Shown: positions 5,171-10,500 of the stretch, piece after piece
Layout of the letters: each line of letters begins with the position of its first letter
Position numbering within the stretch: position 1 is the first letter of the stretch
Source of the DNA: an uncultured Prevotellaceae bacterium
Lineage (GTDB): Bacteria > Bacteroidota > Bacteroidia > Bacteroidales > Bacteroidaceae
Direction of reading: 5' to 3'
DNA length: 44,087 nucleotides
Assembly (NCBI GenBank): GCA_947174565.1
Contig: CAMWJL010000008.1
Span: 1 to 44,087, forward strand
Translations under genes and position numbers: made by a program
Notes under the pieces: model-generated
The model's database searches: none
Seen by the model: the letters and a program-made list of their open reading frames with translations, nothing else
What the model was told of the DNA's origin: nothing

Positions 5171-5202
5171 TTTGGCGAATCAAAAATAAAGCCATAACTT
5201 TG
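5171..5202 (+). promoter_or_regulatory. Bacteroidetes-type promoter for the tRNA genes
   Basis: TTTG (5171-5174), N20, TAACTTTG (5195-5202), followed by CAGC. Confidence 0.65.
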
Positions 5203-5276
5203 CAGCCGCATTCAGCAAGGGAGGACAACCCTTCCACGAAGGTCGCCACATCCTTGCCGAACGCTTCAATGAGGAT

Positions 5277-5347
5277 TGTGCTATGGTGTAATGGTAACAC
5301 TACAGGTTTTGGTTCTGTCATTCCAGGTTCGAATCCTGGTAGCACAA
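5277..5347 (+). tRNA. tRNA-Gln (anticodon TTG)
   Basis: Cloverleaf: acceptor TGTGCTA/TAGCACA, anticodon loop TTTTGGT, T-arm CCAGGTTCGAATCCTGG. Confidence 0.93.
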
Positions 5348-5405
5348 CTCACCGACAAGTACGGAGCGACACATATACGCTTACCGTGTATGGTATTCCT
5401 CCTTC

Positions 5406-5480
5406 GGACTTGTAGCTCAGTTGGTTAGAGCAACAGACTCATAATCTGGAGGTCCTTGGTTCAAGCCCAAGCTGGTCCAC
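5406..5480 (+). tRNA. tRNA-Met (anticodon CAT)
   Basis: Cloverleaf: GCTCAGTTGGTTAGAGC D-arm, anticodon loop CTCATAA, T-arm CTTGGTTCAAGCCCAAG. Could in principle be the CAT-anticodon Ile2 species. Confidence 0.88.
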
Positions 5481-5490
5481 TAAGAAAATA

Positions 5491-5525
5491 AGCCCCTGCA
5501 TTTTTGTAGGGGCTTTTTCTTTTTG
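5491..5525 (+). terminator. Rho-independent terminator after tRNA-Met
   Basis: AAGCCCCTGC ATTTTT GTAGGGGCTT followed by TTTCTTTTT. Confidence 0.85.
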
Positions 5526-5723
5526 AGACCCATTGAAATCAAGTCCTAATGGACATTGAGTAATAAGTCCCTTATCTTATAATGCGCAGCCTCATATAAG
5601 TAACAAAACGTATAGTCAGGATGCGTTAATCGAAGTAATTCCATATCTATGGGTATATTATATACCGCCGTGCGACGCACACGATGAGTGCCGCATAGTA
5701 TGGGCATCTGTAGCTGCGTGCCA

Positions 5724-5800
5724 GACATACGGACTATTGTGGACAATAGGTGCATAGGGCGAACTATGCACAGAGGTGGTTCGATTCCACCCGTGTGTCC
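5724..5800 (+). ncRNA. tRNA-like structure (no standard anticodon loop)
   Basis: Hand-paired helices: 5724-5731 GACATACG with 5792-5799 CGTGTGTC (8 bp, one G-U); 5734-5739 CTATTG with 5744-5749 CAATAG (loop TGGA); 5750-5757 GTGCATAG with 5764-5771 CTATGCAC (loop GGCGAA); 5775-5779 GGTGG with 5787-5791 CCACC (loop TTCGATT). Confidence 0.75.
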
Positions 5801-5830
5801 TATTATTATTAACAAAAAAACATCATCATC

Positions 5831-6436
5831 ATGAGAACTATGGAATTAAAGGCTATTGCCGCTATCAACGCCAGCTTGGCGAACGCAGTTGAAAACCTGT
5901 CAAAGGGTGAAAAGTACCTGAAAACTATCGATGGTGCATTGGGCATCATCACGAAGTATTGGAACAAAGGGTATGGTGTATCCGTTAAGTCGTTGCCTAT
6001 CAATGCGACACGCCCAAAAGAATTGTCAGCGTATGTACGCTGCATCATGAAAGGGGATGGTTTGCACCCCTCTTTGCTCACAACTGACAAAGAGGGCAAC
6101 ACCGTTGTGGGCGTGTGGTCGTCAAAGACTCTTGAGGATAAGAGTGTAGCAGCGGTTAAGGATGCAAAGGGCCGTGACACCTATCCCTATGTGCTGGACG
6201 AAAAGGGAAAGCCCGTCAAAGTGGATGCTATCAAGCCTATCAACTTGAACAATGTGACACCCAGGACTATCTTTGAACTCATTATACAGAATGAGGCCTT
6301 AAAGGATGGTGCTGTGCCATTCACGGAAGAGTCTTATCATGCCAGTGCCGACCGTGGTGCTATTATGCCAGCACCTCAAGGTCTTGGCAAAGCCACGCCA
6401 AAATCAAAGGGGAAGAAAGCCTCTAAAGCAGCGTAA
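5831..6436 (+). CDS. Hypothetical protein (201 aa) with Lys/Ala-rich basic C-terminal tail
   Basis: Uninterrupted ORF with an A-rich leader, 30 nt after the tRNA-like structure. C-terminus TPKSKGKKASKAA. No family recognised. Confidence 0.75.
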   Translation: MRTMELKAIAAINASLANAVENLSKGEKYLKTIDGALGIITKYWNKGYGVSVKSLPINATRPKELSAYVRCIMKGDGLHPSLLTTDKEGNTVVGVWSSKTLEDKSVAAVKDAKGRDTYPYVLDEKGKPVKVDAIKPINLNNVTPRTIFELIIQNEALKDGAVPFTEESYHASADRGAIMPAPQGLGKATPKSKGKKASKAA

Positions 6437-6469
6437 TCTATTGTATAACAACATAAACAATGTACTATC

Positions 6470-6664
6470 ATGAAGACGTATAAAGAAGTTTCATCAGACA
6501 AAGGGTGTCCTATGCGCTGCTATGCGCGTGACAACAAAGCGACGTACATCATCACAAGTGCCTATGGGCATGACCTCGTGAACGCGTACAAAGAAAAGTA
6601 TTCAAAGCAGCCGTCGGCAAAGTGGTATAACAGGCACTTTGCCTTTAATGAAGCGAATGTGTAA
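6470..6664 (+). CDS. Hypothetical protein (64 aa)
   Basis: Compact ORF in series with its neighbours (33-nt gap). No recognised domain. Confidence 0.6.
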   Translation: MKTYKEVSSDKGCPMRCYARDNKATYIITSAYGHDLVNAYKEKYSKQPSAKWYNRHFAFNEANV

Positions 6665-6684
6665 CCATATAATATATAAGAACT

Positions 6685-6885
6685 ATGACACGAAAGCAAG
6701 CAAGATACCTCGCTGATGGCTTTGTGGTTATCAGCGTCATTATCGGAATCATCGGGATGATTCTCGGTATCATCATTAACTCAAAGATAGGCTTTGTCCT
6801 GTCGGCGTTTGGTGGGTGTGCCTTGGTGCCATCTATCATTGTAGGGCTATTCTATGACGAGCCATTGTATCCTGACGACAAATAA
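6685..6885 (+). CDS. Small membrane protein (66 aa, two predicted TM segments)
   Basis: Hydrophobic stretches FVVISVIIGIIGMILGIIIN and IGFVLSAFGGCALVPSIIVGLF. 20-nt gap from the upstream ORF. Confidence 0.6.
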   Translation: MTRKQARYLADGFVVISVIIGIIGMILGIIINSKIGFVLSAFGGCALVPSIIVGLFYDEPLYPDDK

Positions 6886-7079
6886 AAACAATGCCTCGGA
6901 TATTCCGAGGCAAGGCGGGCGGCCTGAACCGCCCAAGAACCATTTTTCTATGGAAATACAATTTTCTATTAGAGTCGGCAAATTGAAATTGACTGTCACA
7001 TTGGCATTCTAATTTCTTCTGTCGAGGGGCGGATGGTAGCCGCCATTCGCCCCAAATGGTTTTCCACGCTGCAAAGGTA
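6885..7079 (-). ncRNA. Candidate structured ncRNA on the minus strand with promoter box and terminator (box included in interval; TSS approx 7067)
   Basis: Minus-strand TACCTTTGCAGC box (7072-7079), an 11-bp hairpin (7026-7053), a long-range AACCATTT/AAATGGTT pairing (7054-7061 with 6938-6945), a GGGCGG/CCGCCC hairpin (6917-6934) and a 9-bp terminal hairpin (6892-6912), followed on the minus strand by TTGTTTTTATTTG. Confidence 0.5.
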
Positions 7080-7140
7080 TGGAAAATAGTTCACTCTATC
7101 ATAGGGAATTGTATGTTTAACAGCATAAAAAACCGAAAAA

Positions 7141-7353
7141 ATGAAACAATCTATTTATCTTACCATTCTGACAGTGCTGTCATTCCCACTGTTATGTATA
7201 GCACTGTTGCTTGTCTTCTCCAGCTGCGACGGCATGCGTGTGCCTGTCTCCATCCTGCAAACGTCCATGGCGGCATTCCTCTTCTATATGTGTTTCTGGG
7301 GATGCTACCTCATCATCAAGAAGACTCAAAAACGTATCAACTATGGCAACTAA
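7141..7353 (+). CDS. Small membrane protein (70 aa)
   Basis: MKQSIYLTILTVLSFPLLCIALLLVFSSC...FLFYMCFWGCYLIIKK: two hydrophobic helices, A-rich leader. Confidence 0.6.
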   Translation: MKQSIYLTILTVLSFPLLCIALLLVFSSCDGMRVPVSILQTSMAAFLFYMCFWGCYLIIKKTQKRINYGN

Positions 7354-7450
7354 AAGCGTATCTGAACCCGTCAAGGCGGCAATAGAAATCATGGCCGCCA
7401 TCTGTGCCACCGCTGGCTTTGGCGTCATCATGGCTGTCATCGTCGGCTAA
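7343..7450 (+). CDS. Hydrophobic micropeptide (35 aa), overlapping the upstream ORF by 11 nt
   Basis: ATG at 7343 gives MATKSVSEPVKAAIEIMAAICATAGFGVIMAVIVG. The ATGGCAACTAA overlap suggests translational coupling. Confidence 0.5.
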   Translation: MATKSVSEPVKAAIEIMAAICATAGFGVIMAVIVG

Positions 7451-7507
7451 CTATCATTTATCATCATCATCAAAAAACAAAGAACTTATGATATTGTTGA
7501 TAACAAT

Positions 7508-10500
7508 TCATTTTTTGAGAGTTCTATAGTCTTTAGGAAGCACTCCAAACATCTTCTTGAAACTCTTGGTGAAATAACTTGGTGAAGAAAAGCCCGTCTG
7601 CTCAGCAACATGAGATGCACTTAAGGTTGTAGTACGCAGAAGGTTGGCGGCATGCTTGAGACGAATGGTAGTGATGAATTCGCTCGGAGATTGTCCTGTG
7701 ATACCATGAATTTTACGGTAGAGAGTCATGCGGCTGGCGCACATATCACTGCTGAACAAATCTACATTATAGTGCTTGTCAGAAAGATGTTCCTCTACAA
7801 TCTTCTGCGCCCGCTTAATCAGTTCCTCGTCAACAGGTGAGTAAGTCAGTTTGGCAATTTCATGACTTTCCTCATGCTGGAACTGTTGTTTGGCAACAGC
7901 ACGTTGACTCTGCAGATACTGGATGCGGTTTAGCAGGACAGCTGGACTGAAAGGTTTGGTAAGATAGTAATCTGCTCCCATCTTATAGCCTTCGAGCCGT
8001 GTCTCATCACTATGTTTCGCCGTAAGAAGGATAATTGGTGTATTACTCGTATGCTCTGCACTCTTGACATGTCGGCACAAATCAAAACCGTCCATCACGG
8101 GCATCATCACATCGCTGATAATCAAATCTATATTATTTCCTGTAGATAGTCGCTGCCAGGCCTCCTCCCCATTGCTTGCCTCCTCTATGGCATAGCCCTC
8201 TTCACGTAACTGCTCCGCAATTAGTGCACGTAGCTCCATATTATCCTCAACCAGCAAAATGCAGTTCTTGAATTGCACAGTACCAATGTCTGCACTACTG
8301 CCTGAAGTATCCTTTGTTAGGACTGACACCACTTCATGCGTTGTGGACGAAGCTATAGAAGCACTACAATTCAAAGGTATTACAAACCAAAAATCAGAAC
8401 CTACTCCCTGATGACTTTCTACACCCACCTCACCCCCGTGAAGACGTATCAGTTCACGCACCATGTACAACCCTATCCCGCTTCCACCCTGAGAGGTGGC
8501 ATTGGATGACTGGAAATAGCAATCGAAGATATGGGGCAAATCTTTAACGGCTATACCCATGCCATCGTCTATAATATGTACAGTAAGCAGGTCACAATCT
8601 TCGTCATTCAACTTCAACACCACGTTGATGTGCCCTCTTTCATGAGTAAACTTCATCGCATTACCAAGCAGATTCCAAACAACGTGATGCATCTTTTCAT
8701 GATCGAAGATGGCATACACAGGCTTGTCAGGACGCTCATAGTTCAGCAGAATACCCTTGCGTTGTGCCAAAGGCAGGAAAGCGTTCACAGCCGCCAGAAC
8801 GAAGCCGTTCATATCACCATTACGTAGTGACAGCCTTTGCTCCTCAACCTCCATACGACGGAAATCAAGAAGTTGATTGACAAGATGCTGCAATTCCAAT
8901 GTATTACGATGTATGGTCTCCAGCCGCAACCGATCAAGTTCAGGCAACGAGTTCCCAGATGCCAACATCTGCTCCACAGGCACCAATATGAGAGTGAGAG
9001 GAGTACGAAGTTCATGACTGACATTGGTAAAAAAACGAAACTTCATTTCAGTGAGTTGTTCTTCCATCTGTTCCATGCGCTTGCGACGAACAGACCGTGA
9101 ATACATCTTGAATATCAATAGAATTAGTACAAACAGACATAAACAATAGAACATGTAAGCCCACCACGCCTCCCACCAGGCTGGCAAACGATGCAAGGTA
9201 AAAACAACAGTCGGTTCACCCCAGATGCCCTGACCATTGGTCGCACGAACCTCTACGACATAATTTCCCTTGTCGAGAGATGTCAATACAATGGTATTAG
9301 CACCTACAGGCAACTCTATCCAATCTGCAACATGATTTCCGACTATGTCTTTTTTGACAAGCCGATAAGCAAACTGTATCTGAGAAGCTAAATGATGTTG
9401 CAGGGTGGTGAGTTGTAGTTCTACCACATTGGACATGCAGTCAATCTCCATTTCGTTCTTACCAAGGCATACGAAATGCTTTTTCCCATCCACAATGATG
9501 GTTGAAACCTTTGGCTTTTCATCGATTTTAGTCAATGTCTGAAAGTTGGCCGAGGCAATGGCACAGTAGCTCTCTTCTTCGCTCACACATACCGAATCGC
9601 CTGTAGTAGCGGAGAACAGACTGAAATGATCCATTTGTATCATGGGATGGTTGCACATCAGCATACGACACAGACCTGATTGCGAATCCCACTCTTTCAC
9701 ACTTTCCTGTGTAAGCACCCAGACATGCCCCTTACGGTCTTGTTGTACATCCAGTATTCTTTTACCTGACGTATCGCTAAGTTGCCGCACATACAGCGGG
9801 GCTTTGTCTTTACGATAATCATAAGAATATACACGACCCATACTGGTACCAATCCACAATGTGCCATCATCAAGTATTGTCAACGATGAACACGTTTCGT
9901 AATCATGCAGCAAAGGGATGCCCGTTTTTTCTCCCTGGCGTAACATGCACAGCCCCCTTTGCCTCCCTTGATAGAAGATATTTCCATCATGATCCCGCAC
10001 AGCACGTATCACATCTGGTATTTTCCCACGCAACACCTCCAAAAGGGAATCGGTGTCCGTTGATGCCGTATAATGTACAAAATACTTTCGAATGCTATTC
10101 TCGCAGCGTGGCAACATAAACACCTGTCGCGAAGCCCCCGATACCCACAGATTACCATACACGTCTCGAGTGATATTGCGATAATAATATCGCCCCTTTG
10201 GAAGTTGCTGAGTGATGGGACATACCAGAAGATTATTGGTTTCATCAAACTGATAAGCAAACAGGCCAGCAACAGTTGATACCCACAAAATGCCAGCCTC
10301 TTTATCTAATTCAACATCAAGAACTTTCTCTGCTCCTTGAACACCCGTGTCAAGAGTGGCCTGTTGTACCTCACAGAACGCATTGCAACCCACCATATCG
10401 GGAATGTACTTAACAATGCCTTTACCCCATGTACCTATCCAATAGCAGCCATGAGCAACATCTTCAACCATACATTGCGGATTGAAATCCTTATGCCACA

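Follow-up and report, generated by a model that had tools for sequence, protein, structure and literature searches.

What role could a tRNA-like fold without an anticodon loop play when it lies between a pair of host tRNA genes and a small open reading frame (ORF)? The question is raised by positions 5724 to 5799 of the window, that is, the whole 44,087-nucleotide stretch of DNA analyzed, which is contig 8 of a draft genome of 2.8 Mb (98% complete). The structure and its parts are as follows.

5724 to 5799, + strand: tRNA-like structure, from ViennaRNA folding, Rfam and a descriptor scan
5724 to 5731 with 5792 to 5799, + strand: acceptor stem, 8 bp
between the 5' strand of the acceptor and the D-arm, + strand: 2-nt linker
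5734 to 5749, + strand: D-arm, 6 bp, loop TGGA
5750 to 5771, + strand: middle hairpin, 8 bp, hexaloop GGCGAA
5772 to 5774, + strand: variable region, 3 nt, AGA
5775 to 5791, + strand: T-arm, 5 bp, loop TTCGATT

The initial annotation had described four helices and 27 pairs in tRNA order at 5724 to 5800. Folding recovered them all (27/27 pairs formed), with one adjustment to the boundary: C5800 is unpaired and the structured element ends at 5799. The minimum free energy (MFE)/centroid structure reached -35.2 kcal/mol compared with -19.9 ± 3.3 for shuffled sequences (z = -4.67), and none of 200 shuffles folded as well. Two registers of equal energy were seen, 9/4 in the MFE structure (G9 with C68) and 8/5 in the centroid; the acceptor and T stems together form a 13-bp helix in both. 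We consider the plus strand to be the RNA-like one because a U.G pair turns into A.C on the minus strand, which folds more poorly (-26.9). Scanning the whole window on both strands with a perfect-cloverleaf descriptor returned only tRNA-Gln (22 pairs) and the tRNA-like element (26 counted pairs), and the same descriptor found six hits in total, with a maximum of 23 pairs, among 20 first-order Markov windows. The four-helix tRNA-like fold is solid and well supported.

It is also well supported that the element is non-decoding, as had been proposed from the sequence. Where a decoding tRNA has a 5-bp stem and a 7-nt anticodon loop with U33, the element has a hairpin of 8 bp capped by the hexaloop GGCGAA, and U33 is missing. 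ARAGORN made no call on the element, and RF00005 did not match it at E ≤ 0.1. Under permissive settings its only meaningful Rfam match was RF01852 (tRNA-Sec), the best family in cmscan, at 34.3 bits (E = 3.2e-5 over 401 nt, or 5.3e-5 over the whole 2.8-Mb genome) against a gathering threshold of 47 bits. This match denotes tRNA likeness rather than Sec identity because several ordinary host tRNAs score near 34.3 bits against the same model. tRNA-Sec identity was ruled out by the subthreshold score, the lack of UCA and of a long variable arm, and a position 73 that is not G; no tRNA-Sec scored above the cut-off anywhere in the genome. The tRNA-Sec-like proportions noted initially do hold, with a 13-bp acceptor/T helix, a 6-bp D-stem and a 4-nt loop, in comparison with published tRNA-Sec proportions (PMC7609411). 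The absence of an encoded CCA, likewise noted at the outset, is real. It carries no weight: of 38 distinct tRNAs that ARAGORN found in the host, 27, both neighbors included, are also without one.

The surroundings of the element comprise the following features.

5277 to 5348: tRNA-Gln, left border of the locus, paired with tRNA-Met
5406 to 5480, + strand: host tRNA-Met (CAT), found by ARAGORN and Rfam, which with tRNA-Gln forms the conserved left border
5490 to 5515, + strand: intrinsic terminator of the tRNA operon, which keeps the operon transcript apart from the tRNA-like element
5556 to 5583, + strand: weak sigma-70-like promoter candidate, TTGAGT-16-TATAAT, 10/12 matches
5831 to 6436, + strand: ORF1, 201 aa from the ATG at 5831 or 198 aa from the ATG at 5840, with a basic C-terminus
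6470 to 6664, + strand: ORF2, 64 aa, weakly similar to a Microvirus hypothetical protein
6685 to 6885, + strand: ORF3, 66 aa, by inspection a probable two-helix membrane protein

The tRNA-Gln/tRNA-Met region was matched in 34 of 45 genomes of the genus, and conservation across the genus genomes was absent in the DNA beyond the tRNA-Met terminator. The stretch 3' of the tRNA pair is an insertion hotspot of variable DNA. We also observed that window positions 5480 to 7500 differ in nearly every genus genome and hold no remaining integrase. A search around 5200 to 7700 for an integration footprint yielded no informative long direct repeat. Past the operon's terminator, the tRNA-like element and ORF1 have a putative transcription start of their own, and no terminator was found between the fold and ORF1. 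Promoters in Bacteroidota are mostly unlike the sigma-70 consensus, and the TTGAGT-16-TATAAT candidate is weak; the region contained five sigma-70-like candidates compared with 3.3 ± 1.8 in shuffles, which is no excess.

ORF1, which starts 31 to 40 nt downstream of the fold, matched nothing in Pfam, NCBIfam or PADLOC. One distant relative of its central region (31% identity over about 85 residues) was identified in G096, a genome from another genus of the family, so that the initial description of an orphan ORF stands with respect to database families and fails by this single protein. In the G096 relative, the ORF1-like region follows an N-terminal domain that occurs elsewhere with other C-termini; neither the G096 locus nor the loci sharing this N-terminal domain carried a convincing tRNA-like element. 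No relatives were found in the viral contigs, genome contigs, phages and plasmids searched. A phage match (H2, MT836208) was dropped, as it lay inside a larger unrelated ORF with E = 0.09. ORF1 is a rare accessory gene, and a mobile character of the region was supported. Five loci (L012, positions 1782 to 2474, and L059, L060, L061 and L062) shared the N-terminal domain MSRLxDLYKAMETLR...DYxPGxPIxxxLSRK joined to differing C-terminal domains, in G096 to the ORF1-like region, and by inspection had SIR2-like, AAA and nuclease-like neighbor genes, which suggests mix-and-match accessory loci.

Of the remaining ORFs, ORF2 showed weak similarity (29% identity, E = 3e-3) to a hypothetical protein encoded by a small ssDNA phage of marmot feces, Microvirus mar59, and ORF3 had no significant family match. 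An antisense ORF at 5546 to 5815 was rejected as a genuine gene; its 'HTGGIEPP' is the customary product of translating a tRNA T-arm antisense. Further downstream, at 7343 to 7450 on the plus strand, lies a possible gene for a 35-aa hydrophobic peptide, MATKSVSEPVKAAIEIMAAICATAGFGVIMAVIVG, which overlaps the end of a 70-aa ORF.

All searches left the tRNA-like element as a single known sequence. No homologue was recovered from about 1,000 Bacteroidota genomes (45 of the same genus, 399 of the family, 295 of the order and 307 of the phylum, by BLASTN or covariance model, with stricter filters for sets of more than 40 genomes) or from the viral scans run. BLASTN gave no homologue in the 399 family genomes, and a covariance model (R1) applied to the genus, family, order and phylum samples gave other hits at 23 to 29 bits that were ordinary tRNA-Leu, tRNA-Cys and tRNA-Phe. 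Exact fragments of the element were not found in viral contigs, scanning viral and genome contigs for the loop signature retrieved only chance matches and ordinary phage tRNAs, and the island was not found in plasmids. Two side observations concern tRNA genes on minus strands. A host tRNA-Gln (CTG)-like gene (L104, 2001 to 2072), at 31.1 bits against Rfam tRNA and passed over by ARAGORN, looks degenerate or unusual, and two viral-contig tRNAs (L117, 10208 to 10287; L119, 8369 to 8448) have the anticodon arm CTGAC-TGGCGAAAG-GTCAG with an apparent 9-nt loop.

How might such an element be connected with the gene behind it? Two further segments bear on this.

5636 to 5645, + strand: anti-start element TAATTCCATA, complementary to the ORF1 start region at all 10 nt
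5839 to 5848, + strand: ORF1 start-codon region TATGGAATTA, which holds the ATG at 5840 and is the anti-start target

Each of the two sequences is single-copy in the window; the string AGAACTATG is common to the ORF1 start region and the start of ORF3 at 6685. The ORF1 start codon itself (5831 or 5840) is inferred. A complement of at least 10 nt to the start region occurred in 0.1% of dinucleotide-shuffled leaders, in a post hoc test run once the pairing had been noticed. The mean probability of pairing between 5839 to 5848 and the leader was 0.957, a value reached by none of 300 shuffled leaders, and across 5801 to 6090 the start codon was the most leader-paired segment. The pairing persisted for every tested 5' end up to 5636 and was gone for those at 5646 or later. 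The tRNA-like pairs stayed at 0.976 while the anti-start was paired with the start, and the tRNA-like element sits in a loop because the anti-start/start helix closes around it. When the transcript began at 5801, the start region was unpaired with a probability of 0.34 to 0.95 versus 0.00 to 0.17. The leader minus its tRNA-like part was ordinary in structure (z = +0.53), as was the plain leader/start duplex in energy (36% of shuffles equally good). The anti-start pairing is predicted, from these folding models, to hide the ORF1 start codon.

What the computation shows is a fold whose middle arm cannot decode, an exact complementarity, and a start codon predicted to close and open. The initial idea of a leader that matures the downstream mRNA is plausible, and we tentatively favor a reading in which the tRNA mimic sits ahead of a small horizontally acquired gene, ORF1, in its 5' leader, and acts there as a processing switch. 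In the uncut transcript, the anti-start at 5636 to 5645 would pair with 5839 to 5848 and block ORF1 translation, the tRNA-like fold lying in the loop between anti-start and start codon. Host RNase P would see the D/T-loop elbow and the 13-bp acceptor/T helix and cut on the 5' side at about 5723/5724, and RNase Z might cut on the 3' side at about 5799/5800. One cut, whether 5' or 3', would be enough to part the anti-start from the start codon, leaving an mRNA for ORF1 whose leader is short and A-rich and whose translation would be permitted. The cleavage rate may follow some signal, for example free RNase P or tRNA load. Transcription, cleavage, the effect on translation and the signal that sets the cleavage rate are what we infer here, the mechanism being derived from one sequence; as regards the function of the tRNA-like element, our confidence is limited. 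Against the processing switch stand the G096 relative of ORF1, which has no tRNA-like element, the single sequence from which the element is known, and the ordinary leader structure (z = +0.53) and duplex energy. More doubtful again is the wider proposition that a non-decoding mimic in an mRNA leader serves as a switch by which mobile-gene expression reports the state of RNase P and tRNA processing.

One rival reading makes the element a relic without present function: a tRNA gene, integrated behind tRNA-Met, that belonged to a mobile element since lost or degraded and had its anticodon and variable arms replaced. The variable hotspot 3' of tRNA-Met in the genus, the lack of any homologue of the element, the rarity of ORF1 as an accessory gene and the comparable RF01852 scores of ordinary genome tRNAs are all consistent with such an origin. 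However, 27 intact pairs and canonical D- and T-loop signatures are unlike a decaying pseudogene, none of the host tRNAs could be recognized as its parent, and the general Rfam tRNA model is silent at E ≤ 0.1. We regard the relic as unlikely.

Another unlikely account, slightly less credible to us, is that RNase P and RNase Z release a free tRNA-mimic sRNA of 76 to 77 nt that acts in trans, for example as a decoy, tailed with CCA, for tRNA-binding enzymes, or as a HisRS substrate, with the downstream ORFs merely on the same transcript. Here the end of the acceptor matters. The 13-bp helix ends in a G:C pair (G5724:C5799); if this pair is taken as G-1:C73, the signature of tRNA-His, an acceptor of the usual 7 bp is left. 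Like the anti-start element, this reading was absent from the initial annotation. Of the host tRNAs, tRNA-His alone has C73, and it too carries a G ahead of position 1. HisRS is able to charge G-1:C73-bearing minihelices of 13 bp and microhelices of 8 bp (PMC9976931), and histidylation through this pair is by analogy a possibility, not a result. The GTG anticodon of tRNA-His is lacking, as the element has no anticodon loop. The His reading could equally be a by-product of a Sec-type 8-bp acceptor, the 6-bp D-stem and 4-nt loop are unlike tRNA-His, and mascRNA, the nearest analogue, is not aminoacylated (PMC11693755). A trans-acting sRNA would, moreover, reduce the start-codon complementarity to coincidence.

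Alternatively, the structure could remain uncut and work in cis, as a tRNA-like leader that boosts translation or senses a ligand, refolding so as to expose or hide the start codon in the manner of yjdF. In vitro, translation rises 2- to 6.3-fold when a tRNA or tRNA-like structure stands ahead of a Shine-Dalgarno site (PMC9142559), and the present fold lies 31 to 40 nt ahead of the ORF1 start. Yet yjdF and other known riboswitches were rejected, with no Rfam match to any of them, and the fold is predicted to be very stable (about 0.97) with or without the anti-start pairing, which gives no sign of a switch inside it. An uncut leader seems to us rather improbable.

A chance fold is suggested by the single known sequence, but is very hard to reconcile with cloverleaf descriptor scans that peaked at 22 pairs in the rest of the window and at 23 in random sequence versus 26 here, with a genome-wide tRNA-Sec E value of 5.3e-5, and with the exact T-loop and D-loop motifs. 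The GGCGAA loop resembles the bacterial Ro-binding consensus. A YrlA-like Y RNA partner of Ro60, the reading to which that resemblance and the tRNA-like domain of YrlA RNAs (PMC7790460) would point, was nonetheless rejected as next to impossible, since TROVE/Ro60 protein, usually encoded next to such RNAs, is absent from the genome (98% complete) and there is no Rfam YrlA match.

If the processing switch is real, it would represent a new coupling of mobile-gene expression to tRNA maturation, with anti-start and start flanking the mimic, and the tRNA-like element would offer a compact substrate for the minimal-tRNA needs of RNase P, RNase Z, the CCA-adding enzyme and HisRS.

Several known RNAs share part of this architecture. 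The bacterial Y RNA YrlA also has a non-decoding tRNA-like domain, whereas here there is no Ro60, no Rfam match and no separate Ro-binding stem. yjdF is a bacterial tRNA-like mRNA leader that controls translation, and authentic tRNAs placed in a leader raise it (PMC9142559). The riboswitch resembles the present locus in having a tRNA-like fold in a bacterial 5' leader near the start codon, but belongs to other bacteria, and the element neither matched yjdF in Rfam nor showed its T-loop paired to a ribosome-binding site. Allo-tRNAs and other non-canonical tRNAs (PMC7609411) have altered acceptor/T proportions as well; unlike the element, they decode and have an anticodon loop. With tRNA-His it has in common the G-1:C73-type terminal pair, giving an 8-bp acceptor, and it differs in D-arm proportions and in the absence of the GTG anticodon. 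Bacterial tRNA-Sec has the same 13-bp acceptor/T helix, 6-bp D-stem with 4-nt loop and 2-nt linker, and likewise has zero nucleotides separating the D-stem from the next stem; in contrast, the element has no anticodon loop or UCA, a single hairpin replacing two arms, and a C after the acceptor.

Non-decoding tRNA mimics cut by RNase P and RNase Z are best known from the mammalian MALAT1 and NEAT1 RNAs. The 3' elements of these RNAs, mascRNA and menRNA, are by analogy of structure the closest known systems. They have a longer stem with a compact loop as the equivalent of the anticodon arm, and their elbow recruits RNase P and RNase Z (PMC11693755). In sequence and secondary structure, the element has the D-loop GG, a T-loop fitting TTCRANT, the coaxial helix and the longer stem that mark a mascRNA-like RNA. 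Both are non-decoding and combine a tRNA-like acceptor and T-arm, contact between D-loop GG and T-loop, a longer stem and compact loop for the anticodon arm, and few junction linkers. mascRNA and menRNA differ in being mammalian, in lying at the 3' end of long non-coding RNAs and in having a small D-arm. Their cleavage has been demonstrated, whereas that of the element at 5724 to 5799 is proposed here.
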